Assembly (NCBI GenBank): GCA_024650045.1
Contig: JANKMU010000016.1
Coordinates: 1 to 37,387 of the forward strand
Length of the DNA stretch: 37,387 bases
Source: Mycoplasmatota bacterium
Lineage (GTDB): Bacteria; Bacillota_I; Bacilli_A; Acholeplasmatales; Acholeplasmataceae
Direction of reading: 5' to 3'
In this document: positions 19,749 through 34,846 of the stretch, in pieces
Layout: each line of letters opens with the position of its first letter
Numbering within the stretch: the first letter of the stretch is position 1
Made by a program: the position numbers and the translations under genes
Notes under the pieces: generated by a model
Told to the model about the DNA's origin: nothing
The model's input: only the letters and a program-made list of their open reading frames with translations
Databases searched by the model: none

Positions 19749-20369
19749 ATGATAAACAATAAACCAGTAGCTGCACAATTTAATTTTTGGAAATGGCTAC
19801 ATAAAAATCGAATTAAAGTTGTAACTTATTCTTTCTTAATTATTATCCCATTAACACTATTATTAACTGCCTACATTGGAACTTACACAACACACACAAA
19901 GGTTCATTTTGATCAGGAAGTAACGGAAAACACAGAATATATTTCAAAATTTACTGATATGGATGAAATTGATGCTTTTGAATTATCTATTGATTGGAAG
20001 GAATTAAAATATCCAGTTTTAAATGAAGATGATGAATTATCTGGTGGATATTATATGTTTTCAATGTTTTACACAGCAAAACAAAACTATTCTGTTATTT
20101 CAATGACAGTTACACCTGTACTAAAAACTAATTGGACAGATATAAGATCTATGGGAAATCCTGTAACATTAACGCCATCAGCAAGAAATGTGCAGATTCC
20201 ATTTAATTATGAATTGCCGGTTAAACCTTTATGGTTTGTAACAGTTGAAGAACCCATCTTATATTTAAAGATAGATTATACATTTGTAACAGCTACCAAT
20301 GAAATCGCTAAAACCGTTTATATACAATTTATTTTGTCTGAAATTAATCCAGATAAAGTTGTTGCATAA
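19749..20369 (+). CDS. unknown single-pass membrane protein
   Basis: I do not recognise this protein (206 residues from the chosen start). A short basic cytoplasmic segment (FWKWLHKNRIK) precedes one membrane helix at about 24-46. About 160 residues with alternating beta-strand character then presumably lie outside the cell. There are no cysteines, no lipobox and no catalytic motif that I can name. The alternative ATG at 19728 has no Shine-Dalgarno, and its first codons contain AAGGAG, which serves the ATG at 19749 with a rather long spacing (12 bases). The gene stands alone on the plus strand between rny and the thioesterase gene, with its own -10 and a strong terminator, and interrupts the Bacillus-like recA-rny neighbourhood. 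Confidence 0.75.
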   Translation: MINNKPVAAQFNFWKWLHKNRIKVVTYSFLIIIPLTLLLTAYIGTYTTHTKVHFDQEVTENTEYISKFTDMDEIDAFELSIDWKELKYPVLNEDDELSGGYYMFSMFYTAKQNYSVISMTVTPVLKTNWTDIRSMGNPVTLTPSARNVQIPFNYELPVKPLWFVTVEEPILYLKIDYTFVTATNEIAKTVYIQFILSEINPDKVVA

Positions 20370-20411
20370 TACAGGGACTTAAAGTTTTTAAATTATTTTA
20401 TTTGCATATAA

Positions 20412-20457
20412 AAACAAAAAGATGCACCTAAACAACTTTAGGAGCATCTTTTTGTTT
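20412..20457. terminator. bidirectional terminator between convergent genes
   Basis: A very strong 20-bp stem with one A-A mismatch: outer arms 20412-20420/20449-20457, then GATGC/GCATC and CCTAAA/TTTAGG around loop CAAC. The A-run on one side and T-run on the other make it work both ways. It separates the plus-strand membrane protein gene from the minus-strand thioesterase gene. Confidence 0.9.
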
Positions 20458-20492
20458 ATTGTCTATGACAAGAAATATCTCTTAGACTTTTT

Positions 20493-20906
20493 CTATTTTT
20501 CGATGTTTTTAGTAAATAACTTATACATATCGGGATTAGTTTTTTCTATATTCATTGGTCTAAATTGATTGTTTAACCAAACAAGTCTTGTTTCTCCAAT
20601 ATGAATTAACTCATTATTTTTATCATAGAGTTCATATCTAAACTCCATTTGAACTCCAGAAAATTCAATTAACAGTGTTCTTTGTGTATAAGTTTCACCA
20701 AATTTAGAAGGTTTCTTAAAAATTGATTTCATTTCAACCATTGCTAAACTGATATTTTGTTCTTCAATCTTTGGAAACGGTATACCTATATCGTCACAAA
20801 ACTTAACTCTACCCATTTCATACCATATTGGGTAAACTGAATGATGAATAACACCCATTTGATCTGTTTCTTGATATCTTGGTTCAATCGTTAATACTGA
20901 CTTCAT
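20493..20906 (-). CDS. acyl-CoA thioesterase, 4HBT hotdog family
   Basis: A 137-residue single hotdog-fold protein like YbgC/FadM thioesterases, which hydrolyse acyl-CoA thioesters. The active-site segment YQETDQMGVIHHSVYPIWYE has the Asp, the GV and His, and the W-x-E pattern of the 4HBT family. The substrate cannot be read from the sequence; fatty-acyl or branched acyl-CoA are the usual ones. The start has AAGGAGG. A recA terminator lies upstream, so it needs read-through or a weak promoter of its own (TATAGT is present near 20930). Confidence 0.85.
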   Translation of the reverse strand: MKSVLTIEPRYQETDQMGVIHHSVYPIWYEMGRVKFCDDIGIPFPKIEEQNISLAMVEMKSIFKKPSKFGETYTQRTLLIEFSGVQMEFRYELYDKNNELIHIGETRLVWLNNQFRPMNIEKTNPDMYKLFTKNIEK

Positions 20907-20946
20907 TTTAATACCTCCTTAAACTTATTTGCAACTATAGGTGTTG

Positions 20947-20972
20947 AAAAAATGTCATACATGCGTATGACA
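20947..20972 (-). terminator. terminator after recA
   Basis: The stem TGTCATAC/GTATGACA (20953-20960/20965-20972) has a 4-base loop and is followed by six Ts on the minus strand. It starts 7 bases beyond the recA stop codon. Confidence 0.85.
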
Positions 20973-20979
20973 CTTTATC

Positions 20980-21984
20980 TTATTTTTTTTCATATGAAAT
21001 GCTATAGTGATCAAGCACTTGTTGATTAATCTTTTTCATAATATCTGGATGATCAGTTAAATACTGTTTTGCGTTTTCTCTACCTTGACCTATTTTGTCT
21101 CCATCATAGGCAAACCATGCTCCGCTTTTTTGAATGATATCTAGATCTGATGCTAAGTCAACAAGTTCTCCAACTCTTGAAATACCTTTACCATATATAA
21201 TATCAACGCTTACGACCTTGAATGGTGGAGCAACTTTGTTCTTAACAACTTTAATGTTTGCTTTATTACCAACGATATCAGTTGCATTTTTAATTTGTTC
21301 ACTACGTCTAATCTCTAATCTCACGGATGAATAGAACTTTAATGCTCTACCACCTGGAGTAGTTTCTGGAGATCCAAACATAACACCAACTTTTTCGCGA
21401 ATTTGGTTAATAAAAATAGCTGTTGAATTCGCTTTAGAAATAACACCTGATAATTTTCTCATAGCTTGACTCATTAATCTTGCTTGTAAACCAACATGAG
21501 AATCGCCCATTTCACCATTAATTTCTGCTTCAGGAACTAATGCTGCAACAGAGTCAATGACAATCATATCAACCGATCCACTGCGAATCAATGCCTCAGC
21601 GATTTCTAATGCTTGTTCACCAGTGTCTGGTTGTGATAATAATAGATTATCAACATCAACACCAAGTGCTCTTGCATATTGTGGGTCAAGTGCATGTTCA
21701 GCATCTATAAATGCGACATATCCACCTAATTTTTGCACCTCAGATATTGCATGAAGTGCAAGTGTTGTTTTACCCGAACTCTCAGGTCCATAAATTTCAA
21801 TAATTCTACCTTTTGGATATCCACCAATACCTAGTGCTATATCTAATCCTAAAGAACCAGTAGGATGTGCTTCAACATGTCGATCAGGTTCATCACCCAA
21901 TCTCATAATTGACCCTTTACCATACTGTTTTTCGATTTGTTTCATTGCGACCTCTAAGGCCTGTGCTCTTTTATCTTTGTCCAT
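20980..21984 (-). CDS. recA: recombinase RecA
   Basis: Forms filaments on single-stranded DNA, drives homologous pairing and, where present, SOS signalling. The 334-residue protein has Walker [11 protein letters not shown], the MAW/L1 region around [22 protein letters not shown], and [14 protein letters not shown] (L2). The C-terminal tail is short and ends YSISYEKK, without the long acidic tail of E. coli RecA. The start has GGAGGTAGACTCA. It follows pgsA by 46 bases, as in the Bacillus neighbourhood with cinA removed. I see no LexA-box-like palindrome just upstream. Confidence 0.98.
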
Positions 21985-22030
21985 TGAGTCTACCTCCGAC
22001 TTATAATAGTTGTTTTTTTATTGTTTTACT

Positions 22031-22600
22031 TTAAATACTTTCAAATATAGTGTTTCTATTTTTGATTAAATAATCTAATCCGCTTATTACTGTAAAGAAG
22101 ATTGCTACCCAAAATATAATATTACCTATCATCGGATGAAACCCAAAATCATTAAATAATAAAATGATAAGTGCAACCATCGTAGATGCTGTTTTAAACT
22201 TTCCATAAGGTGATGCTGCAATGACATTACCTCTCTCAATTGCTAACAACCTAATACCTGTAACAGCAAACTCGCGAACAATAACGATCATGACAGCCCA
22301 TAAAGGCACTCTTGATGGGTCTAGAACCATAAGATATAAAAATGCTGCTAATACTAATATTTTATCCGCAATCGGATCTAAGAACTTTCCAAACGTCGTA
22401 ATTTGATCATATTTTCTAGCAATATAACCGTCTAGAAAATCAGTAAATGCTGCTAATACAAACAAGATTGCAAACACAAATTGATTGATATCCATAGCAA
22501 AAAAGCCAATTGGAATTTGCAAAGGCTTTAAATAAATAAAGACAATCATTATTGGAATCATCAAAACTCTAAGTATAGTAAGTTTATTTGCAGTCGTCAT
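22031..22600 (-). CDS. pgsA: CDP-diacylglycerol-glycerol-3-phosphate 3-phosphatidyltransferase
   Basis: Membrane enzyme that makes phosphatidylglycerol phosphate from CDP-diacylglycerol and glycerol 3-phosphate. The CDP-alcohol phosphotransferase motif DG-x2-AR-x8-G-x3-D-x3-D is intact (DGYIARKYDQITTFGKFLDP, then IAD), and several membrane helices flank it. I start it at the ATG at 22600 (189 residues, MTTANKLTILRV), which has AAAGGAAG before it. The in-frame ATG at 22639 would add 13 polar residues and lies within the promoter. Same transcript as recA, with no terminator between them. Confidence 0.95.
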   Translation of the reverse strand: MTTANKLTILRVLMIPIMIVFIYLKPLQIPIGFFAMDINQFVFAILFVLAAFTDFLDGYIARKYDQITTFGKFLDPIADKILVLAAFLYLMVLDPSRVPLWAVMIVIVREFAVTGIRLLAIERGNVIAASPYGKFKTASTMVALIILLFNDFGFHPMIGNIIFWVAIFFTVISGLDYLIKNRNTIFESI

Positions 22601-22629
22601 TTTGTTACTTCCTTTAACTTTATAAGTAT

Positions 22630-22638
22630 ATTTTACCA
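22630..22638 (-). promoter_or_regulatory. extended -10 promoter of pgsA-recA
   Basis: The minus strand reads TGGTAAAAT, about 30 bases upstream of the pgsA start. No good -35 is seen at 17 bases. It is divergent from the rpsT promoter. Confidence 0.4.
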
Positions 22639-22655
22639 TAAATATGCGTTTCCTG

Positions 22656-22684
22656 TTGCAATTTTAATATGCTTTTGATACAAT
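22656..22684 (+). promoter_or_regulatory. promoter of rpsT
   Basis: TTGCAA (22656-22661) and TACAAT (22679-22684) have a 17-base spacer. The leader before the rpsT GTG is about 20 bases. Confidence 0.65.
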
Positions 22685-22711
22685 GGTTATGCGCATATGG
22701 GAGGTGAAATT

Positions 22712-22978
22712 GTGGCAAATATTAAACAACAAATTAAACGTAATAAAACTAATGAAAAACGTCGTTTACACAACGCTTCTTTTAAATCATCCGTAAAAAC
22801 TGCGATTAAAGCTGTCGAAACTGCTGTAGCAGCTAATGAAAAAGAAAAAGCAATCGAATCATTATCTTTCGCACATAAGAAGTTAGATAAAGGATTAGCT
22901 AAAGGCATCTTTCATAAGAACTTTGTCGCTAGACATAAATCAAGTTTAGCTCTTATGGTTAATAACCTAGAAAATTAG
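22712..22978 (+). CDS. rpsT: 30S ribosomal protein S20
   Basis: Small primary rRNA-binding protein of the 30S subunit, 88 residues, lysine-rich and helical (ANIKQQIKRNKTNEKRR, then SSVKTAIKAV). The start is the GTG at 22712, preceded by GGGAGGTGAAATT. The ATG at 22697 overlaps that Shine-Dalgarno and would add five residues not found in S20 proteins. It is one of two plus-strand genes in the window. In Bacillus it also stands beside holA in the opposite orientation. Confidence 0.97.
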   Translation: MANIKQQIKRNKTNEKRRLHNASFKSSVKTAIKAVETAVAANEKEKAIESLSFAHKKLDKGLAKGIFHKNFVARHKSSLALMVNNLEN

Positions 22979-23000
22979 GACACAATGTGTCTTTTTTTTT
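22979..23000 (+). terminator. terminator after rpsT
   Basis: A short stem GACAC/GTGTC (22979-22983/22987-22991) with a 3-base loop is followed by nine Ts. It begins directly after the rpsT stop codon, and its T-run reaches the stop codon of the opposing exonuclease gene. Confidence 0.75.
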
Positions 23001-23655
23001 AGCTATTTTCGATTTCTCTACGTCCACCTTTTTGTGCTATATATTTGACATGCGGTAATTTTACTCCAGAAACACCATATTTATGATTATACCCAATAAC
23101 ATTAATATATTTCTCAATGTTATCCTTTTCAAGACTCATTTTCTTTAATGCTTCAAGCGTTGCCTTGATATCATCTAAAGCTCTATGTGTATTTGGAACC
23201 TCAACACGATATGTTTCTACTGCTTGATCTAGACGATGTGGATATGGGTGACGATCTTTATAAATCGCCATGACATCTAGAATGTCATTTTTTATTTGGA
23301 AATTGTGGTCCCAAAATTTTTTGAAAAAATAAGTTAGAAATGACAAATCAAACTGAATATTATATGCAACCAATAAAGTTCGGTCGTCTTGATACATTTT
23401 GAAAAATTGATGAAATGCTTCTTCTTGAGATAAACCATCTCTAAGTAACATTTCATCAGTAATTTTTGTTATTTCAGTTATTTTTAGAGGAAGTGGACGA
23501 TCAGCCATAACAAGTGCAGACATCTCATCAGTAATTCTATACTTCCCATCAACTCGCTCTAAAACAATCGCTCCAATTTCAATAATTTGATCACGATCAG
23601 CATAAAGCCCTGTTGTTTCAAAATCAAATAGCAAGATTCTATCATGTGTTAACAT
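22999..23655 (-). CDS. DEDDh 3'-5' exonuclease, DnaQ-like
   Basis: A 218-residue protein with the three exonuclease motifs of the DnaQ superfamily: DFETTG near residue 11, NIQFDLSFL near 100, and HRALDDIKAT near 158, carrying the His of the DEDDh subclass. It resembles the proofreading exonuclease of PolC or a stand-alone epsilon-like protein. The true substrate (DNA proofreading, repair or RNA) cannot be decided from sequence alone. It starts one base after holA ends, with GGAG inside holA, so it is made together with the clamp-loader delta subunit. Confidence 0.85.
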   Translation of the reverse strand: MLTHDRILLFDFETTGLYADRDQIIEIGAIVLERVDGKYRITDEMSALVMADRPLPLKITEITKITDEMLLRDGLSQEEAFHQFFKMYQDDRTLLVAYNIQFDLSFLTYFFKKFWDHNFQIKNDILDVMAIYKDRHPYPHRLDQAVETYRVEVPNTHRALDDIKATLEALKKMSLEKDNIEKYINVIGYNHKYGVSGVKLPHVKYIAQKGGRREIENS

Positions 23656-23656
23656 A

Positions 23657-24604
23657 TCATGCTCCTAACAAATAAAGTTCTAGTCCTAATTTTTTATCTA
23701 TTTTCCCAGATTTAATATCATAATCAAGTTTAGACAATTTCTTCAAGTGATTTTCTAATATTTGAAAATTCACAGATTGGGCATTTTTAACTAAATAATA
23801 CGCACGTCCACTTTTGATATGAAAATGTTCTGCAATTTGATCTTGACGATAACCTTTGTCTAATAATAGTTTAGCGTGCATCAATTCTCTAACTTTACCT
23901 ACTATATTATTTAATATACGTAATGGATCTTCATTACGAGCAATAAGATCGTAAAAAATCTCAATAGTTTTTGTTTGATTTTTTGAAAGTAATGCATTTG
24001 TTAATTCAAAAATGTTTTCTTCTAAATTTCTACTTACAAGTAATGTTACTGCTTTTTCATGTATTTCTTTAGTATCATATGCAAACAACATTAATTTCTC
24101 AGCCTCTTGATTGATTAAGTTAAAATCTAAATTTGTTCTTTCAAGTAATGCATCTACTGCATCATCTGTTATAGTATATTGATATTTTTTAAACATGTTT
24201 TTAATAAATTCAGGATAATCCTTTTTCTCCATATCCTTAACTTTCTCAATAAATGCATATTTAAATAAAGCTGCACCTAATGCTGAGGTATCAGGTAACA
24301 ACTGAGAAACTGCAATAATTAATATAACATCAGGGTTTGGTTTTTCAAAATAAGAAATCCAACTGTTAATGACGTATTCATCCTCTTTTTCTAATTCTTC
24401 AATATTTCTAATAACAATAACTTTAGTTTCAGCAAAAAAAGAAACTGTTTGTAAATCTTCTAAAATATCATCACTAGGATTTTCTAATAAATCGTATTTA
24501 ATAATATTAAAAGGGTCAACATTAAATTCCTTAATTTTTTCTTCAATTGTGTGGTTTAATAAAAACTCATTTGTGCAATGATATAAATAAATGGCTTCGG
24601 CCAT
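23657..24604 (-). CDS. holA: DNA polymerase III delta subunit
   Basis: Clamp-loader subunit that opens the beta clamp. The protein has about 315 residues, with the N-terminal LYHCTNEFLLNHTIEE, the central ETKVIVIRNIEEL region and the C-terminal collar helices. Its position (comEC-holA-rpsT) is as for Bacillus yqeN. I choose the second of two close ATGs (24604), because the Shine-Dalgarno AGGGGGC directly abuts the first (24610). The stop is UGA. Confidence 0.9.
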   Translation of the reverse strand: MAEAIYLYHCTNEFLLNHTIEEKIKEFNVDPFNIIKYDLLENPSDDILEDLQTVSFFAETKVIVIRNIEELEKEDEYVINSWISYFEKPNPDVILIIAVSQLLPDTSALGAALFKYAFIEKVKDMEKKDYPEFIKNMFKKYQYTITDDAVDALLERTNLDFNLINQEAEKLMLFAYDTKEIHEKAVTLLVSRNLEENIFELTNALLSKNQTKTIEIFYDLIARNEDPLRILNNIVGKVRELMHAKLLLDKGYRQDQIAEHFHIKSGRAYYLVKNAQSVNFQILENHLKKLSKLDYDIKSGKIDKKLGLELYLLGA

Positions 24605-24630
24605 AATCATGCCCCCTGACTGTTACTATC

Positions 24631-24636
24631 ATTATA
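24631..24636 (-). promoter_or_regulatory. -10 element of holA
   Basis: A perfect TATAAT (minus strand, AGTATAATG) lies in the 44-base gap between holA and comEC, about 27 bases before the holA start. The -35 is not evident. No terminator follows comEC, so read-through is also possible. Confidence 0.45.
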
Positions 24637-24648
24637 CTAAAAATCACT

Positions 24649-26727
24649 TTAAAATGGTAGATGAAACATCCATTTTGATTTCTTTTTTGAATATATATTC
24701 AAGATGGTTCCATGAAGATCAGTACGATAAATCGTAACATTATATCGAATCAATCGATTGATAACTTCTTGGTCTGGGAAACCATACCTATTTTTTAAAC
24801 TGAGTGATATGACTGCAAACCGAGGATTCACATAAGATAAAAAGATTTCAGATGTTGAAGTTGATGATCCGTGATGCCCAATCTTTAAGACATCGCTTTT
24901 AAGTGAATAACCATATTGATGGATTAAGTCAATTTCTGCATCATGTTCTATATCGCCAGTCAAAAGATATGACAAATCATTTATCTTCGTTTGAATAACA
25001 ATTGAGTTGTTATTTGGTGATTCATGCTGTCTAATAGGTCCCAGTATATTTAAATGAATATTACCACAAGTCAACTTGTCTTTTGCTTTTACATATATTA
25101 TGTTAGGATGCTTAATTGAGTAATTGTCATATAACGATAAAACAACTGCTTTAACATTCACACTATCAATAATGTTTTGGGCTTCTTTAGTATGATCAAA
25201 GTCGCTATGAGTTAATATCAAATAATCCAATCTATATATACCGTGATGATTCATGAATTGTAACACATGTTGATAACTATCAATAACTGTTTGACATTCA
25301 TTTGAAGATATTAAAATAGAATCTCCTTGACCAACATCTAGAAAATATATTTTATCTGATTTCTGAAAATCTAGAATGACAATCCAGAAAACTGTGGCTA
25401 AAAGAATGATTCTAAACACCATGTTTTTAAAATTTTTCGATCTGAACAATGAAATAAGAAGTATAAAATAAAGAAGCATAAAATAAGGATTCAATGCAGG
25501 TAATTGAATTCCGATATTCCGATGATTGAACATCAATAAAAATGTCTCAAATAATTCCGTTAACTTAAAATAATATATATCAAACTCCGGAAACATCCAT
25601 GTACATATAGCTAGCAAAAACAAAGGTGATGTTACAAAAAACACTAACATAGGAAGCACTAAAATCAATATGATTGAAAACTCCAGATTAAAGGGTAAGA
25701 CTACAAGATATATTACTGTAGTCATCATCAATCTTTTTAAATATCCTTGATATAAACGAAATCTAAATTCCATTAAATAAATAAAATTGAGAATTAGATA
25801 TGTAATCAAAAAACCAATATGATATATCCAATATATATGTGTAACAAGCATGATAAAGAAAACGAAATGCAAGATGTCAATTTTGCTCAAATTAAGTTCA
25901 AGTTTATCGTTAATCAATCTAAAAGCAAATACCAAAGCAAGTCTAACGACTCCAATAGAAAAAGCATTTAAATATAAGAATACAACATAAATAAGACCTA
26001 CAAACAGATCTTGTTTTTTTTGACTAAAACTTAAATAAAAAAATATCTTTTTTACAAACGAAATCAAAGCATACAAGTGCAAACCAGAAACAGTGAACAA
26101 ATAAATAATATTTAAATCTTTAAATAACTTTTTCTGCTCAAAATTAAAGTTCCTTTCTCCTAGAATGAAACTTTGTAGATAACTGTTAGATTGCCTAGTT
26201 GAAAGATTTTGACTAATTTGGTCTCTAAGTGTGTAAAAAGTGTCATTTTGCTCAATCTTATTGATTTCATAAATTGAAATATAACCTAAAACGTTTTGAG
26301 AATAGTGAAATTGCTGTTCGTTATAACCGTACGGAATGGTCTGTTTTTTGTATGTGTTTATTTTCCCATCAATATAAATCTTATCTCCTATTTGATAATC
26401 ATTTTTAGGAGTATTTACATTATATTTTTGATGTTTATATTTTAAAGTCAACTGATCATTATACTCATATTGTACAACTCGAACGACAGTTGCTTCACCT
26501 TGTATTATTTTGGGAGTATATTGCATCGTAAAATGAAAAAATAGAATTGATACAATACTTATCAATATGATCAACAGCATCATTCTAATTCTTTTTCTCA
26601 ATACAAAAATATATATTACAAGTACAAGCCACATCCAAGGAAAAAATAAGCCAAGAATAAATAAGAATAATGCATAACCTTCGATATGAAGGTTATCCCA
26701 ACTTAATATATGGTCTAATTTTTTCAA
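24649..26727 (-). CDS. comEC: competence DNA-translocation channel ComEC
   Basis: Polytopic protein that forms the path for single-stranded DNA uptake in transformation. In the 692 residues I see N-terminal membrane helices, an OB-like extracellular region (about 75-155) and the Competence domain with SGLHLY near 214-219 and several helices. A C-terminal metallo-beta-lactamase domain has HSDFDH at 507-512 and GHHGSSTSTSE near 630. The start is a TTG at 26727 with AGGTG nine bases upstream; it overlaps the end of comEA by 35 bases, and no ATG or GTG nearby fits better. A perfect 9-bp hairpin spans the overlap. The gene looks intact, although competence in such organisms is not established. Confidence 0.9.
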   Translation of the reverse strand: MKKLDHILSWDNLHIEGYALFLFILGLFFPWMWLVLVIYIFVLRKRIRMMLLIILISIVSILFFHFTMQYTPKIIQGEATVVRVVQYEYNDQLTLKYKHQKYNVNTPKNDYQIGDKIYIDGKINTYKKQTIPYGYNEQQFHYSQNVLGYISIYEINKIEQNDTFYTLRDQISQNLSTRQSNSYLQSFILGERNFNFEQKKLFKDLNIIYLFTVSGLHLYALISFVKKIFFYLSFSQKKQDLFVGLIYVVFLYLNAFSIGVVRLALVFAFRLINDKLELNLSKIDILHFVFFIMLVTHIYWIYHIGFLITYLILNFIYLMEFRFRLYQGYLKRLMMTTVIYLVVLPFNLEFSIILILVLPMLVFFVTSPLFLLAICTWMFPEFDIYYFKLTELFETFLLMFNHRNIGIQLPALNPYFMLLYFILLISLFRSKNFKNMVFRIILLATVFWIVILDFQKSDKIYFLDVGQGDSILISSNECQTVIDSYQHVLQFMNHHGIYRLDYLILTHSDFDHTKEAQNIIDSVNVKAVVLSLYDNYSIKHPNIIYVKAKDKLTCGNIHLNILGPIRQHESPNNNSIVIQTKINDLSYLLTGDIEHDAEIDLIHQYGYSLKSDVLKIGHHGSSTSTSEIFLSYVNPRFAVISLSLKNRYGFPDQEVINRLIRYNVTIYRTDLHGTILNIYSKKKSKWMFHLPF
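26674..26696 (-). promoter_or_regulatory. hairpin across the comEA stop and early comEC codons
   Basis: A perfect 9-bp inverted repeat ATAACCTTC/GAAGGTTAT (26674-26682/26688-26696) has a 5-base loop. It contains the comEA stop codon (26693-26695) and lies about 10 codons into comEC. No U-tract follows on the minus strand, so it is not an intrinsic terminator. A role in coupling or pausing is inference. Confidence 0.5.
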
Positions 26728-27202
26728 GTGTAACTACACCTATATTTTTGACATTGATTAATTCATCGACAGTCTTGAAATCACCATGTGCTTCTCGATA
26801 AATGATGAGTGATGCAGCTCTAGTTTCTGTCATATGTGGTATTTGTAATAATTCTTTAAAGCTAGCTTGATTTACGTTGACCATTATACTAGGCTCAACT
26901 TGTTCTATATTAATACTTGGAATCGTGATTTGTCTACTAAAATGAATGACTTCTGTAAACATAACATTGGATGTATCTGCATCTTCTAAAAGACCACCTG
27001 TTTTGTTTATTATTTCACTTATTGTCACAGGTTCAAAAAAACGATAAGTTCCAGGAAATACGACTGCCCCTTTAACCTCTATATCAATAGGGATTAACAT
27101 TTCAGGACCTTGATTAATATATTCAATTTCCTCAGTTTTTGGAAATAACCAAACCCAACCAAGAACAGTTAAAATTACGGTCATAATCATTGCTTGTCTC
27201 AT
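26693..27202 (-). CDS. comEA: competence DNA receptor ComEA
   Basis: Membrane-anchored DNA-binding protein that receives incoming double-stranded DNA before ComEC. The 169 residues comprise an N-terminal membrane helix (about 3-20), an SLBB-like domain (EVKGAVVFPGTYRF..ISEIINKTGGL, about 42-80) and a C-terminal helix-hairpin-helix pair (VNQASFKELLQIPHMTETRA and FKTVDELINVKNIG). The Shine-Dalgarno AGAGGAG is the 3' arm of a terminator-like hairpin, and the U-run ends right at the ATG. It is followed by comEC in the usual order, with comEB absent. Confidence 0.93.
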   Translation of the reverse strand: MRQAMIMTVILTVLGWVWLFPKTEEIEYINQGPEMLIPIDIEVKGAVVFPGTYRFFEPVTISEIINKTGGLLEDADTSNVMFTEVIHFSRQITIPSINIEQVEPSIMVNVNQASFKELLQIPHMTETRAASLIIYREAHGDFKTVDELINVKNIGVVTLEKIRPYIKLG

Positions 27203-27234
27203 AAAAAAACTCCTCTATCTTATACTAGAGGAGT
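27203..27234 (-). promoter_or_regulatory. terminator hairpin embedding the comEA Shine-Dalgarno
   Basis: A perfect 9-bp stem ACTCCTCTA/TAGAGGAGT (27209-27217/27226-27234) with an 8-base loop is followed on the minus strand by an uninterrupted T7 and then the comEA ATG. The 3' arm holds the Shine-Dalgarno AGAGGAG. When folded it would both stop transcripts coming from yqeM and hide the ribosome site of comEA. An RNA opened by something else would be needed for expression, or a transcript starting within the hairpin. Confidence 0.75.
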
Positions 27235-27251
27235 ATCTCTGTTTTTACTAT

Positions 27252-27272
27252 AAAAAAAGCCTATTTAAAGGC
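27252..27272 (-). terminator. weak terminator at the yqeM end
   Basis: A 4-bp GC-rich stem GCCT/AGGC (27259-27262/27269-27272), overlapping the yqeM stop codon, is followed by seven Ts. The stem is short, so confidence is modest. With the hairpin at 27203-27234 it makes a tandem block before comEA. Confidence 0.4.
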
Positions 27273-27902
27273 AATGATTAAATGTTTCCTTGAATCGATA
27301 GAATCTTTAACTTCGTACTTAAATCCCATTTCCTTTAAAATATTCAAATAATAAGTTAAAGGATAAATATATTGCTTAATATAATCCATTTCATTTCCAA
27401 CTTCAACTTTATGCATCAACATATTCCCTTTTGATAACATAGACCATTGATATGAAATTGGATCGGTTTCTACTTCAACATATTCGTGGTATTCTTCTAA
27501 CACTTCATATTTATATATATCAAAAATAAATCTTCCACCCTGATTCAATGCTTGATAAATATGATGAAAAATCTTTTTAATTCCTTTAAAATAATTCATC
27601 ACATCAAACATAGCCAAAATAACATCAGCTGAAGTATATATTTTATTTTTTAAATCATGTTCATATAATGCAGTAGCATATTGATTCGATTTTAATTTAT
27701 CTTGAGCAATCGATAACATTTGTGTGTCATGATCAAAACCAATCGCAAAATGATTGTTTTTTAGTAGTTCTAAAAGTAAATAACCAGAACCACAACCTGC
27801 ATCAATAATAATATCTTCTTTTTTTAAGTAAGGTTTAATCTGCTGATAGATAGCATCATAATCTACATCAGACATTAAGATATCATAAACTCTTGCAAAC
27901 AT
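27261..27902 (-). CDS. yqeM: class I SAM-dependent methyltransferase, YqeM type
   Basis: A 213-residue methyltransferase with the SAM-binding motif I DAGCGSGYLLLELL (near residues 35-48), FDHD for the ribose hydroxyls, and a Rossmann-like core (VILAMFDVMNYF, GGRFIFDIYKYE). The substrate is unknown, including for the Bacillus relative yqeM. Position (rsfS-yqeM-comEA) supports the name. The ATG overlaps the rsfS stop by one base (TAATG). Confidence 0.85.
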   Translation of the reverse strand: MFARVYDILMSDVDYDAIYQQIKPYLKKEDIIIDAGCGSGYLLLELLKNNHFAIGFDHDTQMLSIAQDKLKSNQYATALYEHDLKNKIYTSADVILAMFDVMNYFKGIKKIFHHIYQALNQGGRFIFDIYKYEVLEEYHEYVEVETDPISYQWSMLSKGNMLMHKVEVGNEMDYIKQYIYPLTYYLNILKEMGFKYEVKDSIDSRKHLIIAFK

Positions 27903-28216
27903 TATTTAATCCTTTTAATGCCCATAAGTCTTTGATCAAAACCATAAAACTTACGGTCTTCTTCTCTAAATAAATGCACGATAACATCATGACAGTCTAT
28001 TAAGACCCATGTTCCGCCCTTACCTTCAACATGTCTTATTTCATCTGCTAGTAATTTTTTCTTTAAATAATTGATTGCTGCATTTGCTTGTCGCTCATTA
28101 GTCGTTGCAATAACGAAATAATCATAAAATGGTGATGTTTTTTCAAAATCGAAAACAGCAAGATCTTTGACATTAACGTCTTCAAGTGTGCTAATAATTT
28201 TATTGAGTTTTTCCAC
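27902..28216 (-). CDS. rsfS: ribosome silencing factor RsfS
   Basis: Binds ribosomal protein L14 and prevents subunit joining when nutrients are short. The 104 residues match the family: DVNVKDLAVFDFEKTSPFYDYFVIATT, EGKGGTWVLIDCHDVIVHLF and REEDRKFYGFDQRL. The start codon is GTG at 28216, preceded by AAGGAGG. It overlaps the yqeK end by 17 bases. Confidence 0.95.
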   Translation of the reverse strand: MEKLNKIISTLEDVNVKDLAVFDFEKTSPFYDYFVIATTNERQANAAINYLKKKLLADEIRHVEGKGGTWVLIDCHDVIVHLFREEDRKFYGFDQRLMGIKRIK

Positions 28217-28772
28217 TATTTACCTCCTTATAGTATGCGTAGGCACCAAGTTGTTCTTCACTTGGTGTTAATTGTTTTTTGTATACATGTTTAATACTAA
28301 TTTTCATGCAATGTTCAACTGCTAAATCCAAATCTTTTGTTGCTAAATTATAAATAAGTTCGCAATCTTTAAATCCTCGATTTGGCTCGCATGAATCGCT
28401 TATAAAAATAATTTTTTCAATATCTGTCATCTTTGGTCTTCCCCAAACATGATATTTAATCGCATTAAGTATTTCTTTGTCTCTAATTTTAAAATCATAT
28501 TCAAGTTGTGCTGCAGCAGCTAATGCATGATAGATGACCGGATACTCAACATATTCTTTAATTGACTTAAGGTCCAAATACTGAATTTGCTCTTCAATAG
28601 TATCATATTTTGCATAATCATGATAAAGAGCTGCAATAGCAACTTTTTTTTCATCAACCCCATGAATTTTAGCCAATTTTACAGCAGTTTCATAAACACC
28701 GAAAACGTGTTGTAATCTTTTTTTATGATTTTTAAGTTTCTCTGTTACTTTTTCCTTGATTTGATCAATCAT
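28200..28772 (-). CDS. yqeK: HD-domain hydrolase YqeK, likely Ap4A hydrolase
   Basis: A 190-residue HD-superfamily protein. H22 and the H51-D52 pair (LYHDYAKYD) fit the metal-binding pattern, followed by H80-region residues and SDSCEPNRG. Bacillus YqeK-family proteins split diadenosine tetraphosphate symmetrically to two ADP. In most relatives nadD lies immediately upstream or is fused, but here it is missing and yqeH is directly adjacent (ATGA overlap). Confidence 0.9.
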   Translation of the reverse strand: MIDQIKEKVTEKLKNHKKRLQHVFGVYETAVKLAKIHGVDEKKVAIAALYHDYAKYDTIEEQIQYLDLKSIKEYVEYPVIYHALAAAAQLEYDFKIRDKEILNAIKYHVWGRPKMTDIEKIIFISDSCEPNRGFKDCELIYNLATKDLDLAVEHCMKISIKHVYKKQLTPSEEQLGAYAYYKEVNSGKTQ

Positions 28773-29794
28773 TGAAATAGTGCCTCCGTAATACTGATGT
28801 GCATGTTTTTTGGAATATTCATTTTTACCGTCATAGGTCCAACAATATGGATGAATCCCATATCTGCAATCGTTAATTGATGTTTGCCTTTAGGAATTTT
28901 AAAAGATTTTTCCTCATACTTATCAATATATATTTTAAACATTTTTTCTTTATTTAATAATAGATCTTTGACTCTTGTCTCATTTGTTTTGTGGACGCTT
29001 AAGTTTCTATCCACATATAATACAACTGTTGGATCTACCCCTTGAAAGGTCATAGAAACCAAACCTTCTAAAAAGAGTGTTTGATTATTTTTAAGCTGGT
29101 AAATTTTGGGACGCATTTCTTCATCAGGAATTAGTTTTTTATAAACTTCATATGGTAAAAGATGGTGTAGATAACCTTCTTGATAAAGACCTGGCATATC
29201 CCAAATGATATGATTTTCAAAAGGAGCTGATAATGCTTCCTGAGTTAATCCTGCCTTTTTGAATGCTAGTGCTTTTTCTTGGTTGGTTAATGCTTTAAAT
29301 ATTGTAGTTTTCCCACTATTTTGGACACCTAATAAATAAATATTTTTCTGTTTAAATGTTTTTAAATACTTTTTTAGGTTTTCAATATCAAACTTATTTT
29401 TTGAAGACATTAAGATAATATCTACAAATGGAATGCCCATTTGTTTAGCTTTTTTTGTTACATTCTCAATTAATAAATCTAGATTTGTATCTTTTGGCAA
29501 TAAATCAATTTGATTAATGATATAAACATATTTCGCATCAGGTTGATAGCGATAAACTGGATAATTAAACAATAAATCCAAATGAAGTATCGAACTCACC
29601 ATAACAATTAATGAGTCAGCAGGTAAAGAAGGTAAATCTTCAGGATGAAAATGAGTATTTGCTTCACCATAGTGCAACAATCTATAACATGCTTGACAAT
29701 AGTCATGTTCTAAAGATAGCGCATACCCTACTTTATTTATATCTTCAGTTTGAAGAACTGCACCACAGCCTTGACACTTAATGGTCTTCGACAT
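28769..29794 (-). CDS. yqeH: circularly permuted GTPase YqeH
   Basis: Assembly factor for the 30S subunit. The 341 residues begin with a zinc finger (C7, C10, C33, C36; CQGCG...CQAC, then RLLHYGE). The GTPase motifs follow in permuted order: G4 NQID, G5 SSK, then G1 GVQNSGKTT and G3 DMPG. A C-terminal RNA-binding-like region ends the protein. It starts inside the end of yqeG (17-base overlap) with AAAGG. The next gene yqeK overlaps by ATGA, so aroE, yqeI and nadD of the Bacillus cluster are absent. Confidence 0.95.
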   Translation of the reverse strand: MSKTIKCQGCGAVLQTEDINKVGYALSLEHDYCQACYRLLHYGEANTHFHPEDLPSLPADSLIVMVSSILHLDLLFNYPVYRYQPDAKYVYIINQIDLLPKDTNLDLLIENVTKKAKQMGIPFVDIILMSSKNKFDIENLKKYLKTFKQKNIYLLGVQNSGKTTIFKALTNQEKALAFKKAGLTQEALSAPFENHIIWDMPGLYQEGYLHHLLPYEVYKKLIPDEEMRPKIYQLKNNQTLFLEGLVSMTFQGVDPTVVLYVDRNLSVHKTNETRVKDLLLNKEKMFKIYIDKYEEKSFKIPKGKHQLTIADMGFIHIVGPMTVKMNIPKNMHISITEALFQ

Positions 29795-30326
29795 ATGTTT
29801 TCAACCTTTCTTCATATAAAGCTGGACACTTCTTTTTAATTTTTTTTAGAATAATCTTTTCAATCTTTCGATTAAATTGGGTAATTTTTCGATCTGATTT
29901 TCTTTTTACTGAACGAATTAAAATTGATTTTATTCCAAATCGTGAACCACCAAATATATCGGTCATCAATTGATCGCCAATAACAATCGTTTCATCTTTT
30001 GTTGAATCCACCATTCTCATTGCTTTTTTAAAACCAAACTTAAGTGGTTTTTTTGCATACCAAATATATGGAACATCCAAATGAGTTAATGCTTTTTTAA
30101 CACGTTTATAATTTGTGTTTGATATAACTACAATTTGAAAATCCTTTTTCAAATCATTAAGTAAGTCTATATGTTTTTGAGTTAATATTTCATCATCATA
30201 AGCAATGATCGTATTATCCAAGTCAAAAAACAAGGACTTAATACCTTGTTCTTTTAGTTTTTTGTATGGTATTTCAAAAATGGATGCATGATATGCATGC
30301 GGTATGCATTTTTGATAAATTGCCAT
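29778..30326 (-). CDS. yqeG: HAD-family phosphatase YqeG
   Basis: A 182-residue HAD phosphatase of the YqeG type. The nucleophile motif DLDNT has D35 and D37 (FFDLDNTIIAY). Motif II is in VISNTN, the lysine in KPLKFGF, and motif III in IGDQLMTDIFGG. The physiological substrate is not known to me. It starts on the last base of the greA stop codon (TAATG) and runs into yqeH. Confidence 0.92.
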   Translation of the reverse strand: MAIYQKCIPHAYHASIFEIPYKKLKEQGIKSLFFDLDNTIIAYDDEILTQKHIDLLNDLKKDFQIVVISNTNYKRVKKALTHLDVPYIWYAKKPLKFGFKKAMRMVDSTKDETIVIGDQLMTDIFGGSRFGIKSILIRSVKRKSDRKITQFNRKIEKIILKKIKKKCPALYEERLKTYVEDH

Positions 30327-30799
30327 TATTTTACATCCAATATTTCAATTGAAAAAATACGTCCCGTTTCAGTTTTTACTTCAACGACTTCGCCTTCACC
30401 TTTGTTTAGCATTGCTTTTCCGATAGGTGATTCAACTGAAATCTTTCTTTGTCTTGGATCAGCCTCGATACTTCCGACCAAGTAAAATTCTTTTTCTTCT
30501 TTTGATTCTAGAAAACGAACAACTACTGTTTTACCAATATTAACGATATCATCTGATGTTGTTTTAATAATCTTAACGTTTTTTAAGATATTTTCAATCT
30601 CAGCGATTCTTGATTCAATTCTTGCTTGTTCATTTCTTGCAGCATCGTAATCCGCATTTTCTGATAGATCTCCTTGTGCTCTTGCTTCTTTAAGAGCTTC
30701 TAGGTTTTCTCCACGTTTTACATCTTTTAAGTGTGTGAGTTCATTTTTTAGATTATCGACACCTTCTTGAGTTAATTGAAATACTTGTTTTACAGCCAT
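30326..30799 (-). CDS. greA: transcription elongation factor GreA
   Basis: Stimulates transcript cleavage by backtracked RNA polymerase. The 157 residues have the N-terminal coiled coil with the catalytic acidic tip (LSENADYDAARNEQARI) and the C-terminal FKBP-like domain (ESPIGKAMLNKGEGEVVEV). The start has AAGGAGGATCACC. It is the first gene of the greA-yqeG-yqeH-yqeK-rsfS-yqeM run, with a -10 element upstream. Confidence 0.97.
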   Translation of the reverse strand: MAVKQVFQLTQEGVDNLKNELTHLKDVKRGENLEALKEARAQGDLSENADYDAARNEQARIESRIAEIENILKNVKIIKTTSDDIVNIGKTVVVRFLESKEEKEFYLVGSIEADPRQRKISVESPIGKAMLNKGEGEVVEVKTETGRIFSIEILDVK

Positions 30800-30826
30800 T
30801 GGTGATCCTCCTTAAATTTCTTCATT

Positions 30827-30832
30827 ATTATA
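30827..30832 (-). promoter_or_regulatory. -10 element of greA operon
   Basis: A perfect TATAAT (minus strand, TTGTATAATAATG) lies in the 42-base gap upstream of greA. The -35 is weak. No terminator separates greA from the upstream alaS operon, so read-through is possible. Confidence 0.45.
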
Positions 30833-30841
30833 CAACATTTT

Positions 30842-31507
30842 TCAAATAATTGCTATTTTTCGTAAGTCTTTTTGATAAACTTTGTGATTTGGCATCAATT
30901 TACTTAAAAGATTATAAAAATCTTTTGAGTGATTGAAAACGAGCGCATGAGCATATTCATGATATATGACATACGTTAAGTAAATTGGATTAAGTCGTGC
31001 TAGAAAAGTGTTGAGGGTAATCTCGTGGTTTTTCCGATGGTAACTGCCAAACTTTGATTTTAAATACTTGAGTTTATAGTTAAGTGGACTCAGACCATGA
31101 TTTTTTATATTTTCTTCAATACTCATTTCCATTTGATGTAACCAAACACTCAACTCGTTTTTATAAATCTGTTGCTTGATTTTTTTTATATCATCTAAAT
31201 TTGAATGGACAATGACACGATCTACATCAATCTCATAGCTGAACTTTCCCTTAAGTTTAATCAATTGATAGTGAACATCCCACAACATGATTTCATCATC
31301 ACGTTCAGTGACATGCATACTTTCTAACCTGTTATGAAAATGATCAAACTTCTGATCAATATAATTCATAATGGTTTCATGAGTTGTGAACTGATTGGTT
31401 GTGATGAGTAAATGCTGATTTCGAATTCTAAAATATGTATTTTTTATTCGCTTCCGATGGATTTGATAATTTAATATTTTACCGTTCTTTTTATATTGAT
31501 AAATCAT
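30842..31507 (-). CDS. YgjP-like zinc metallopeptidase (DUF45)
   Basis: A 221-residue protein with the DUF45/YgjP layout. A beta-rich N-terminal half precedes KSKFGSYHRKNHEITLN and the zinc motif HEYAH (H183-E184...H187), with a third ligand probably H193 in FNHSKDF. Related proteins are M48-like zinc metallopeptidases, and the substrate is unknown. It overlaps the end of trhP2 by ATGA, so it is co-translated with the tRNA-modification genes. In Bacillus udk occupies this place before greA. A functional link with the tRNA genes is conjecture. Confidence 0.88.
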   Translation of the reverse strand: MIYQYKKNGKILNYQIHRKRIKNTYFRIRNQHLLITTNQFTTHETIMNYIDQKFDHFHNRLESMHVTERDDEIMLWDVHYQLIKLKGKFSYEIDVDRVIVHSNLDDIKKIKQQIYKNELSVWLHQMEMSIEENIKNHGLSPLNYKLKYLKSKFGSYHRKNHEITLNTFLARLNPIYLTYVIYHEYAHALVFNHSKDFYNLLSKLMPNHKVYQKDLRKIAII

Positions 31508-32682
31508 CTTTTTCTTAGCATAGCGTATGGTTCAACACCAAACGGTATTATTATTTTCAAAATTTGTTTAGGATGTCTTGCTATAGGTGTATCAACACCA
31601 TCTGCATCTTTCATGTGATTAACGGTAAATGTTTTTATCTCTCCACTTGGGCTAAACACTTCAACTTCAGCACCATTCTCAAAATAATTCCTTTGTTCGA
31701 TAGTCGCTATTTTCGTATTTTCATCATAGTCCTGAACCAAACCAATAAACAACTGAGTTGGTTGTTCATTTCTTTGATTATAGAGTTGCTGTTCAACACC
31801 TGGTAAACCTTCTAAATATCCATGTGATGCAAGCCTGTTTTCTGCTTTTTGAAGTTCTTGCATATAAGGTTTAAAATCTTTAATTTGATGGGTTTTTTCA
31901 TATTCATCAATAAGTCTTCTATAAGTTGATACAACAGTTGCTATATAGTGAAGGCTTTTCATTCTACCTTCAATTTTTAGTGAAGAAATTTTCGAATCAA
32001 TCAGGTGTGGAATTTGTTCTAATGCTTCTAAATCTTTCGAAGACATTGAAAATGATATGTCACTTATGCTTTCTCCTTTTACAGTTAAATCATAGTTCCA
32101 ACGACAAGAGTGAGCACAACCTCCACGATTTGCATCACGGTCTGTCATGTTATTGGATAAACTGCATCTTCCAGAGTAAGACATGCACATGCCACCATGA
32201 ATGAAAACTTCTAAGTCTGCATTTGTCTTTTGTTTTAGTTTCCTAATTTGGTGTTTATCAAGCTCTCTAGCTAAAACAATGCGTTTGATCCCTTTTTGAT
32301 GCCAAAAATTTACTGTTTCTGCATTACTTGCAGATTGTTGAGTTGATAAGTGAACTTCTAAGTCCGTATGTTTTATAGCCATATCGATAATAAATGGTGA
32401 TGCAGAAATGATTGCATCTACATTTCTTTGTTCTAAAGCCTTTAAATATTCGACTAACCCGTCCATATCTTCGTTGTGAGGTATGATATTGGTTGTTACG
32501 TAGACTTTTTTGTTACGTTCGTGTGCGAATGTGGTTGCATCTAATATGTCGTCTAGGGTGAAATTAGAAGCTCTAGCGCGTAGTGAAAAATTCTGTCCAC
32601 CAATAAAGACAGCATCTGCTCCATACATTAATGCTATTTTCAATTTTTCTAAATCACCAGCTGGTGCGAGTAGTTCAACCAT
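31504..32682 (-). CDS. trhP2: U32 family tRNA U34 hydroxylation protein TrhP2/YrrO
   Basis: A U32 'peptidase' family protein of 392 residues, close to Bacillus YrrO, which works with YrrN in prephenate-dependent hydroxylation of tRNA wobble uridine to ho5U34. The Fe-S cysteines are clear (CMSYSGRC, then GGCAHSC), as are LLAPAGDLEKLK, YGADAVF and GRMKSLHYI. I start it at the ATG at 32682, which has AAAGGATAATATC. An upstream in-frame ATG at 32865 lies deep inside trhP1 and would add a 61-residue lysine-rich segment foreign to the family. It follows trhP1 by 4 bases. Confidence 0.92.
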   Translation of the reverse strand: MVELLAPAGDLEKLKIALMYGADAVFIGGQNFSLRARASNFTLDDILDATTFAHERNKKVYVTTNIIPHNEDMDGLVEYLKALEQRNVDAIISASPFIIDMAIKHTDLEVHLSTQQSASNAETVNFWHQKGIKRIVLARELDKHQIRKLKQKTNADLEVFIHGGMCMSYSGRCSLSNNMTDRDANRGGCAHSCRWNYDLTVKGESISDISFSMSSKDLEALEQIPHLIDSKISSLKIEGRMKSLHYIATVVSTYRRLIDEYEKTHQIKDFKPYMQELQKAENRLASHGYLEGLPGVEQQLYNQRNEQPTQLFIGLVQDYDENTKIATIEQRNYFENGAEVEVFSPSGEIKTFTVNHMKDADGVDTPIARHPKQILKIIIPFGVEPYAMLRKR

Positions 32683-32686
32683 GATA

Positions 32687-33562
32687 TTATCCTTTTTGTT
32701 TATAAATTGTTTTCTTAAAGAAAAACCCTTCATCCCATACTTCTTGATAATCTTTTTGTATTTGATCAATAATTGACTGGTTTGGTTTTCTATTTCGATA
32801 CATGGGAAGAACAGATAGTGCATATGCATCATCTTTGAATAACGTATCAATGACCAAGTAATCAAGATAAGGTTCTAATGTTTTTATATGTGTAAGACTT
32901 TGAAAAATATGACTTCTAAAAACATGTGTTCCCGCTTGATCTTCTAATACAGGATAAGCTTCATCTCTTGTTTCTTCGATAATTTTTAAATCTTGTCTAT
33001 TGTGGTAAATATGATCTTTTTTGTCATATTGCATAAAATTATCAATAAGCTGTCTTTTCGAGTAAAACATATTCAAATGACCGTGTCCAACCATAAACAT
33101 TTTGTATTTTTTGTTTTCAGCGATATATATGATATCTTCTAAAGTTATTTCTTTAGCTACATAGACACCTTGAATATTAAAATCTGCTAAAAAATTAAAA
33201 TCATAGACATTTGTCATTAATGTCTCGGGATTATAAATAACTTTACTAGTAAAACCTAATTTCTCAATTGTTTTATAAGCACCTAAATCAGCAACAACCA
33301 TACCTGATATATCTTGTATTGGTAATTGTTTGAGAAATAAAACTAAATGATCTAATTGTTCATCATTGAAAATTTGATTAAGTTGCAAAAACAATTCTTT
33401 TTTCAATGTTTTTAGTTGCTGTGTAACTTTAATAATTTCTTCAATTGAAAAACTTTTAGTCAATCTCGTTCCAAATTGATCATTACCAATCAAAAAACCA
33501 TCAGCATAGACAGATAAGTTTTCCAGATGATTCAAATCATAAATTGTGGTTAAGATTTTCAT
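32687..33562 (-). CDS. trhP1: U32 family tRNA U34 hydroxylation protein TrhP1/YrrN
   Basis: A 291-residue U32-family protein without the cysteine cluster of its neighbour. This is typical of the YrrN half of the YrrN/YrrO pair. Recognisable segments are VYADGFLIGND, MVVADLGAYKTIEKLG and GHGHLNMFYSKRQLI. It probably acts together with TrhP2. The ATG overlaps the trmR stop (ATGA). Confidence 0.87.
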   Translation of the reverse strand: MKILTTIYDLNHLENLSVYADGFLIGNDQFGTRLTKSFSIEEIIKVTQQLKTLKKELFLQLNQIFNDEQLDHLVLFLKQLPIQDISGMVVADLGAYKTIEKLGFTSKVIYNPETLMTNVYDFNFLADFNIQGVYVAKEITLEDIIYIAENKKYKMFMVGHGHLNMFYSKRQLIDNFMQYDKKDHIYHNRQDLKIIEETRDEAYPVLEDQAGTHVFRSHIFQSLTHIKTLEPYLDYLVIDTLFKDDAYALSVLPMYRNRKPNQSIIDQIQKDYQEVWDEGFFFKKTIYKQKG

Positions 33563-34125
33563 AATGACTTCCTTTGACTAATGCTCATACCATCACCTTG
33601 ATCATAAAATACTGTTTTAAAATCTTGGTGTTCTTGTAGGAATGTCTTAAATGCATTAATTTTTCTTATCAATTGTCTCGTATTACGATTAACAAATTCA
33701 GGTTTTAAATGATGGAATGATAAATTGTCACACACCACAATACCATTGGGTTTTAAGTATGGTACAAACTTTTCAAAAAAGTTTTGATACTGCGCTTTTG
33801 CTGCATCGATAAAAATCATATCGTAACTTCTTAACTCACCTTGATAGTCTAGTGCATCATAAGGTATCAACTGAATTTGATTTCTTTCATCATATTGATT
33901 GAAATGTACTTTCGCTTGTTCAATCATTTTTTGATTTCGCTCAAAAGTATCTATTTTACAACCAAAAGAAGCCATAGCAAGTGCGCTATAGCCAATGGCA
34001 GTACCAATTTCTAAGACATCTTTAACTTGATATTTTTTGATCGTAACATCTAAAAACAATAGACCCTCATCACAAATAATTGGTATATGATGGTCTACTG
34101 CATATTGCTTTAGTTGTTTCAGCAT
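33559..34125 (-). CDS. trmR: tRNA 5-hydroxyuridine(34) methyltransferase TrmR/YrrM
   Basis: A class I O-methyltransferase of 188 residues. SAM motif I EIGTAIGYSALAMAS is at about 39-53 and the metal/catalytic region is IDAAKAQY (about 106-113), with CDNLSF later. Bacillus TrmR (YrrM) methylates ho5U34 in tRNA to mo5U34. Placement directly before the TrhP1/TrhP2 genes supports that role. At 188 residues it is somewhat shorter than the Bacillus protein (about 217). It overlaps both neighbours (TAATG and ATGA). Confidence 0.88.
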   Translation of the reverse strand: MLKQLKQYAVDHHIPIICDEGLLFLDVTIKKYQVKDVLEIGTAIGYSALAMASFGCKIDTFERNQKMIEQAKVHFNQYDERNQIQLIPYDALDYQGELRSYDMIFIDAAKAQYQNFFEKFVPYLKPNGIVVCDNLSFHHLKPEFVNRNTRQLIRKINAFKTFLQEHQDFKTVFYDQGDGMSISQRKSL

Positions 34126-34424
34126 TACGCTTTTTCTTCAGTATCTTCTTCGTCTTCGTCTTCTTCTACATCATCTTCATGCTCATCATAATAAGCTTGA
34201 AGAACGCCATCTAACATATCCCATTCTTCATCTGTTTCGATATCTTCGAAAGATCCTTCATCATCAGATGGTCCTGGAACATAAATTGCTGCACTTACTT
34301 CGTGAGTATCAACAAACTCAAATACAACATAATTCTTTCCGTTTTCTTCGTGTGTAAACAGTATTTCACATACTGCTTCATCACCATTTTCATTAGTTAC
34401 AATCATTTGGTTATCTTTTAACAT
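34125..34424 (-). CDS. yrzB: DUF1292 family protein YrzB
   Basis: A very acidic 99-residue protein of the YrzB/DUF1292 family, with a core MIVTNENGDEAVCEILFTHEENG and a C-terminal Glu/Asp tail (DVEEDEDEEDTEE). Its molecular function is unknown. It is nearly always found between ruvX (yrrK) and downstream genes, as here. In Bacillus mltG (yrrL) follows; it is absent. The start has AAAGGAG. Confidence 0.88.
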   Translation of the reverse strand: MLKDNQMIVTNENGDEAVCEILFTHEENGKNYVVFEFVDTHEVSAAIYVPGPSDDEGSFEDIETDEEWDMLDGVLQAYYDEHEDDVEEDEDEEDTEEKA

Positions 34425-34846
34425 AAACTAGCTCCTTTATAATCTAAATAGTTTTGTAATATAATCACAGCTGCAAGCTCATCTTTTTTTTGTTTTTGTG
34501 ATTTGCGACGCTCTGATCCTTTAATCATTGTACGAATCGCTGTTTGTGTTGACATTCTTTCATCCCACAAAACAACTTCAATATCTCTTTTTTTTAAGAT
34601 GAGTTCTTTAAAGTCTTCACTGATTTTTCCTCGAATACCAATATCATTATTCATGTGTTTAGGATAACCTAAGACGACCGTATTGATTTGATAATCATCA
34701 ATCAATTTAATAACATAATCTACAGCATTTTCATATTGATTTTCACTAAAGCGATGTGTTGTTAATGCATACGCAATGACACCAGACTCACTCAGAGACA
34801 CACCTAAAGTTTTACTTCCTAAATCAAGTCCTAAATATTTTTTCAT
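34418..34846 (-). CDS. ruvX: Holliday junction resolvase-like RuvX/YqgF
   Basis: A 142-residue RNase H-fold nuclease of the YqgF family. Catalytic acidic residues are seen in LGLDLGSKTLGVSLS, VVLGYPKHMN, LWDERMST and KDELAAVIILQNYLD. Family members have been linked both to Holliday junctions and to 16S rRNA maturation, and the sequence does not choose between them. It overlaps alaS by ATGA and yrzB by 7 bases. The small gene yrzL/ireB, usual between alaS and ruvX, is missing. Confidence 0.94.
   Translation of the reverse strand: MKKYLGLDLGSKTLGVSLSESGVIAYALTTHRFSENQYENAVDYVIKLIDDYQINTVVLGYPKHMNNDIGIRGKISEDFKELILKKRDIEVVLWDERMSTQTAIRTMIKGSERRKSQKQKKDELAAVIILQNYLDYKGASLC

Follow-up and report, generated by a model that had tools for sequence, protein, structure and literature searches.

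What role does a hairpin play when it looks like the terminator of one operon and at the same time contains the ribosome-binding site of the next gene? The start of comEA raises this question in the window, by which we mean the whole stretch analysed, the 37,387 nt of contig JANKMU010000016.1. The genome to which it belongs (G000; 1.89 Mb, 99.94% complete) has G001 as its closest relative. Its family, the Acholeplasmataceae, includes the free-living, wall-less Peloplasma aerotolerans, as described in the accessible text of PMC11122141. A first-pass annotation had read the hairpin as a terminator for transcripts of the greA-yqeM cluster that would also mask the comEA Shine-Dalgarno (SD) sequence, giving an off-by-default switch opened by antitermination, a trans-acting RNA, or refolding. 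The features on which the argument depends are these:

20980 to 21984, minus strand: recA, identified from its translation.
21993 to 22030, minus strand: second copy of the two-box element described below, before recA and without a hairpin (pattern match).
24649 to 26727, minus strand: comEC, 692 aa, above the TIGR00361 cut-off.
26693 to 27202, minus strand: comEA, 169 aa, with SLBB and helix-hairpin-helix domains; ATG at 27202.
27203 to 27209, minus strand: run of seven T between the SD and the comEA ATG; the first T pairs in the stem; absent in G001.
27209 to 27217, minus strand: 3′ arm of the hairpin, TAGAGGAGT, containing the SD AGAGGAG at 27216-27210.
27213 to 27218, minus strand: transcription start region predicted for the embedded promoter from promoter spacing.
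27218 to 27225, minus strand: hairpin loop, 8 nt.
27219 to 27228, minus strand: CTAGTATAAG, a −10-like box overlapping the end of the 5′ arm and the loop (pattern match).
27226 to 27234, minus strand: 5′ arm of the hairpin, ACTCCTCTA, inside the putative promoter spacer and −10 box.
27245 to 27249, minus strand: AGTAA, a −35-like box, in the wider context TATAGTAAAA (pattern match).
27252 to 27272, minus strand: terminator-like hairpin at the yqeM stop, weak, with GCCT/AGGC arms followed by T7, read by eye.
27261 to 27902, minus strand: yqeM-like methyltransferase gene, co-directional and upstream of comEA.

ComEC/Rec2 models matched the comEC product in the family scan. The same scan gave methyltransferase models for the gene at 27261-27902; the name yqeM is taken over from the first-pass annotation.

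The hairpin is as had been described, by both sequence and folding: nine perfect pairs join 27234-27226 to 27217-27209 on the minus strand, the 3′ arm holds the SD (7 nt upstream of the ATG), and T7 leads directly to the start codon. Folded alone, the 81-nt segment carrying it reaches −22.0 kcal/mol (z −4.2; none of 200 shuffles was equally stable; all fold energies were computed on short RNAs at 37°C), and in a 221-nt fold it is kept in both the minimum free energy (MFE) and centroid structures, although the 221 nt taken together reach a z of only −1.7. The second, weaker terminator-like element reported at the yqeM stop is also present by eye, as 4 bp at 27272-27259 followed by T7 at 27258-27252.

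Directly before the comEA ATG, one arrangement recurs in the genus: AGTAA, 15-16 nt, CTANTATAAG or a close variant, and an SD. The element can be written AGTAA-N15/16-CTANNATA, adjoining the SD, and the 5′ arm and loop of the hairpin lie inside it. By eye, it also stands before comEA genes whose upstream neighbor is not yqeM (L006, L007, L013, L018); the comEA upstream region of G003 (L016) is without it. The exact pattern with a GGAGG SD has a single match in the window's own genome, before recA. Across the genus, AGTAAN15-16CTANTATARG gave 24 matches against 10 for the reversed pattern, with comEA, recA, a UvrD-like helicase, a tyrosine recombinase, a 227-aa protein, and secreted proteins downstream. 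With up to three mismatches, there were 10 matches against 6 for the control in G000 and 11 against 1 in G001; this search added the radC, helicase, and recombinase genes of the window's genome, along with several other matches that looked like chance.

Family-wide, the pattern ending in GAGG returned 112 rows, or 111 distinct sites once a nested duplicate (G007:C61) was left out, against 6 matches to the reversed pattern. The sites are spread over 38 of 88 Acholeplasmataceae genomes and 10 of 15 genera, all from one family with many draft genomes, and related sites are not independent. A start codon follows the GAGG by 4-11 nt at every one of the 111. The downstream genes form nine groups: comEA (17 sites), recA (20), radC (8), secreted proteins (34 and 23), and others (9). 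Pfam supports RadC, UvrD-helicase, Phage_integrase, and an Ig-like surface domain among the products; it has no match for the 208-aa, 226-aa, and 119-aa proteins, and NCBIfam none for the latter two. The secreted class called Ig-like comprises two kinds merged by single-linkage clustering, one of them without a Pfam match, and the recombinase assignment in the strict set was made by eye, on 33 residues at the edge of a contig. In ten further genomes with comEA (nine without a strict comEA site, plus G003), AGTAA is similarly placed in seven and AGCAA in one. The element was not seen before a pilB-like gene in the stretches read. By its gene content, the set is a putative competence-type regulon.

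Two of the unnamed products may be mentioned separately. The 206-208-aa secreted-looking protein without a Pfam match stands behind the element in 23 genomes, including this one (G000:C33:139732-139785; L193), and might serve DNA uptake at the surface of wall-less cells. The 226-aa protein (MYYF..., LEFGMFNQDERRSEERYTKK) does so in six genomes, including L156 and L184.

The reading that we favor, and hold to be rather probable, is that the comEA hairpin is a read-through lock built around a competence-regulon promoter; from the sequence we infer the promoter function, the effect on translation, and competence as the condition. The promoter would consist of AGTAA (27249-27245) and CTAGTATAAG (27228-27219). 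Polymerase arriving from yqeM would transcribe the spacer, a sequence able to pair with the comEA SD, and the RNA would fold and hide that site; given the T7 of this species, part of these read-through transcripts would probably end at the hairpin. Were the embedded promoter to fire, its spacing predicts a start around 27218-27213, at the SD or slightly upstream of it, so that the RNA would lack the 5′ arm and comEA-comEC could be translated. The same design would recur at radC and the two classes of secreted-protein genes, and be absent at recA.

One alternative, which we regard as unlikely, is that the greA-yqeM cluster simply ends in an intrinsic terminator, which overlaps the comEA start by chance, the SD overlap having no role. 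The stem, loop, and T7 fit this, a G+C-containing stem being followed immediately by a U-run as in any intrinsic terminator, and under the strict family pattern a U-run of at least 5 also follows the hairpin at five of eight radC sites, several of them behind a GuaA-like gene. Terminator-like sites are in any case in excess here (19 in window positions 20000-37387, against 5.0 ± 2.1 in shuffles, about fourfold), so that a single one is unremarkable by itself. One terminator-like hairpin of this part of the window, at 28242-28269, is on the plus strand.

What weakens termination as the main function is the fate of the T-run. Upstream regions of comEA were read in 19 of 20 genomes of the genus (G005 has no readable comEA start in its locus). 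In G001, the stem is kept, with one C-to-T change that still permits a G-U pair, but GTGTTTATA replaces the T-run after it, so this is not a good terminator there. Among the 17 comEA sites that the strict pattern matches in the family, the U-run is present in 3 and missing in 14, while SD complementarity is kept in the class as a whole, and none of the 86 sites that belong to neither comEA nor radC has one. In many relatives in the genus, by eye, yqeM ends in a hairpin and T-run of its own; in several, the counterpart of the yqeM-stop hairpin has a longer stem and T-run. Unlike an intrinsic terminator, then, the comEA hairpin does not conserve its T-run, its 3′ arm is an SD, and its 5′ arm is putative promoter DNA. 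The rarity of U-runs outside radC suggests that termination is likely a local extra at some sites and not the common function. The proposal of a terminator opened by antitermination was thus half right: comEA should be off for read-through RNA, but the T-run is absent in the closest relative.

The stem was to be looked for in close relatives, where G001 bears it out, and examined for covariation, where support was weak: RNAalifold on ten picked sites found changes on both sides at one of eight pairs, since the register of pairing shifts from one site to the next. In place of common-stem covariation, the spacer was shuffled and swapped. After redundancy filtering, 93 of the 111 sites entered a swap test among all sites and 97 of 111 the per-class shuffles. 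The 93 sites pair their own spacers with the SD at a mean of −8.13 kcal/mol, against −6.13 ± 0.21 for swapped spacers (0 of 200 as low). When each of the 97 was compared with 200 shuffles of its own spacer, pairing was in excess for comEA (16 sites; −8.6 against −4.6 shuffled, Z −7.9), radC (5 sites; −14.7 against −6.6, Z −7.8), the 206-208-aa secreted class (22 sites; Z −9.3), the Ig-like secreted class (27 sites; Z −7.1) and, to a smaller extent, the 226-aa class (6 sites; Z −2.1). It was not significant for three single-site gene groups, and recA (18 sites) had no excess at all (−3.0 against −3.3, Z +0.9). Swaps within a class were as low as the observed pairing in 0 of 300 trials for comEA and both secreted classes and 4 of 300 for radC; the 226-aa class (131 of 300) and recA (245 of 300) showed no advantage of the own spacer.

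At single sites the signal varies. Individual comEA sites reached p 0.05 at 7 of 16 and missed it at 9. The 16-nt spacer of the window's comEA is extreme, at −15.7 observed against −3.7 ± 2.3 shuffled (0 of 300). Elsewhere in the same genome, radC and the 208-aa site also pair strongly and the recombinase weakly (0.037); at both Ig-like sites, the helicase, and recA, the real spacer pairs no better than shuffled ones. At the two comEA sites whose upstream neighbor is divergent, the hairpins are weak (−4.8 and −2.5), which is a hint only.

These tests bear on a further alternative, that the spacer is pyrimidine-rich because a sigma factor prefers it so, the SD pairing being a by-product and the hairpin without function. 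The end of the spacer is indeed rich in T and C, and swapped spacers still average −6.1 kcal/mol. Against this, shuffles that keep composition, and swaps within a class, fold much more weakly than the real spacers of comEA, radC, and the secreted classes, and recA has the same boxes with no pairing; we think this explanation improbable.

The comparison of recA with radC and comEA amounts to a built-in natural experiment. The recA element lies 0-6 nt past the stop of a co-directional open frame at 19 of 20 sites, and at all eight radC sites a co-directional open frame ends within 41 nt (in several cases GuaA-like by eye, from the C-terminus). Both therefore sit close behind co-directional genes and are open to read-through, so that the contrast between them is not one of position. 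By eye, radC hairpins have up to 14 pairs. That RecA would be needed always and RadC only in the induced state fits a hairpin at radC only; recA would use the same promoter with its SD left open, since it is also needed at other times. Whether this extends to a regulon-wide rule, in which the promoter spacer is the anti-SD of the gene it drives and each gene is translatable only from its own promoter, with recA having the promoter without the lock, seems to us evenly balanced; under it, the same letters may in addition terminate the operon that precedes radC or this comEA.

Computed accessibility agrees with the proposed lock. For read-through comEA RNAs with 5′ ends from 27902 to 27240, the probability that the SD is unpaired is 0.000, which bears out the earlier claim of a masked ribosome site in RNA entering from yqeM and implies that comEA should be off by default for such RNA. 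With the 5′ end at 27228 or later, the SD is 54-67% unpaired. The recA SD is unpaired with a probability of 0.42-0.85 across all 5′ ends tried. The suggested ways of opening the hairpin, by antitermination, a trans-acting RNA, or a change of folding, fared less well: no alternative antiterminator fold appears in the MFE or centroid structure of the folded region and no Rfam family matches in the window, so nothing points to an antiterminator or a riboswitch, and the embedded promoter is a simpler way out. That a leader made from an upstream promoter acts as a riboswitch, an antiterminator, or a trans-RNA switch is thus very improbable, even if such switches use the combination of masked SD and terminator-like hairpin and the short upstream stretch could serve as a leader, because there is neither an Rfam match nor a competing fold in the MFE or centroid and the conserved letters are those of a two-box element common to recA, which has no hairpin.

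Which sigma factor might read the element? Five genes in this genome encode sigma region 2. One, a SigH-like gene of 170 aa, lies between rlmB-like and secE-nusG-like genes, where Bacillus has its sigH. Among NCBIfam models it matches those of SigH best, with a top score of 53.4 bits, far short of the cut-offs of at least 208 for the leading SigH models. The boxes are AGTAA and CTANNATA instead of the AGGA-like −35 and GAAT −10 of sigma-H. Across the family, 36 genomes have both the element and a SigH match, 2 the element only (G011, G039), 19 SigH only, and 31 neither; without the one genus that lacks both (29 genomes), the association is uninformative (p 0.61). The element is probably read by this SigH-like factor. 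Open frames resembling SigH with one in-frame stop each occur in G020, G024, G025, and G038, and are perhaps decaying genes.

Among the others, ECF sigma 1 (L031) is an unlikely reader: relatives at 48% identity or more, its own genome included, are found in 10 of 20 genomes of the genus, with no near relative in G001, which carries the element. ECF sigma 2 (L032) is a possible alternative, with near relatives in 18 of 20; it is missing in G008 and G014, where the element is present and which are 81-85% complete. Both ECF genes (G000:C11 and G000:C5, respectively) have neighboring frames whose products look very acidic or membrane-anchored. A second RpoD-like sigma factor of 357 aa (L033; G000:C19) is encoded on a small contig beside helicase-like and radical-SAM-like frames, perhaps as part of a mobile element.

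For Acholeplasma laidlawii, a member of the same family, the accessible portion of PMC5138195 gives housekeeping promoters as TTGACA and TRTG-TAWAAT, unlike AGTAA and CTANNATA; starts there are mostly 6 nt on, a few nt past the −10 box as predicted here. “AGTAA” and “competence” are both absent from the main text of that paper.

The nearest known arrangement is that of bacteriophage T4 gene e. According to the available sections of PMC3014915, the SD of this gene (also of soc, 49, and I-TevI) is hidden in early read-through RNA and free in RNA from late promoters; those of gene e sit just ahead of the ribosome site, within the DNA that specifies the 5′ strand. The comEA anatomy would be the same in kind, with the SD in a helix in both and, as predicted here, the long RNA masked and the short one free; the likeness rests on sequence and computed folds. 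It differs from the T4 case, as covered there, in concerning cellular genes, a whole regulon, and probably a bacterial sigma factor, and in that the U-run at comEA and radC may add termination.

Sigma-H of Listeria drives comEA and comG, according to the accessible text of PMC4754846, from promoters with an AAAGG(A)TTT-like −35 at 22 and 19 nt from the gene. There too the promoter is directly before comEA, and the 22-nt distance fits; the −35 is similar (AAAGGATTT in Listeria, TATAGTAAAA here), but the −10 differs (GAAT against CTANNATA), and that text makes no mention of an SD-masking hairpin. Competence genes are also driven by sigma-H in Lactobacillus sakei and Staphylococcus aureus (PMC3364868 and PMC3486894, as far as their available parts go). 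In S. aureus, an inverted repeat at the SD in the sigH 5′ untranslated region likewise limits translation of a competence gene, but it acts on the sigma gene itself, and the accessible part of PMC3486894 describes no promoter inside the repeat.

A literature search, mainly of open-access papers, returned no report of the AGTAA element or of an SD lock in a bacterial competence regulon, and no paper on a competence sigma factor or competence regulon in the Acholeplasmataceae, for which a competence-type regulon with a readable promoter is now proposed. If the reading is true, the arrangement at the T4 lysozyme gene would be a regulon-wide rule in cellular, wall-less bacteria, and the read-through lock would be a simple way to silence induced genes in dense genomes where transcription runs through from neighbors.
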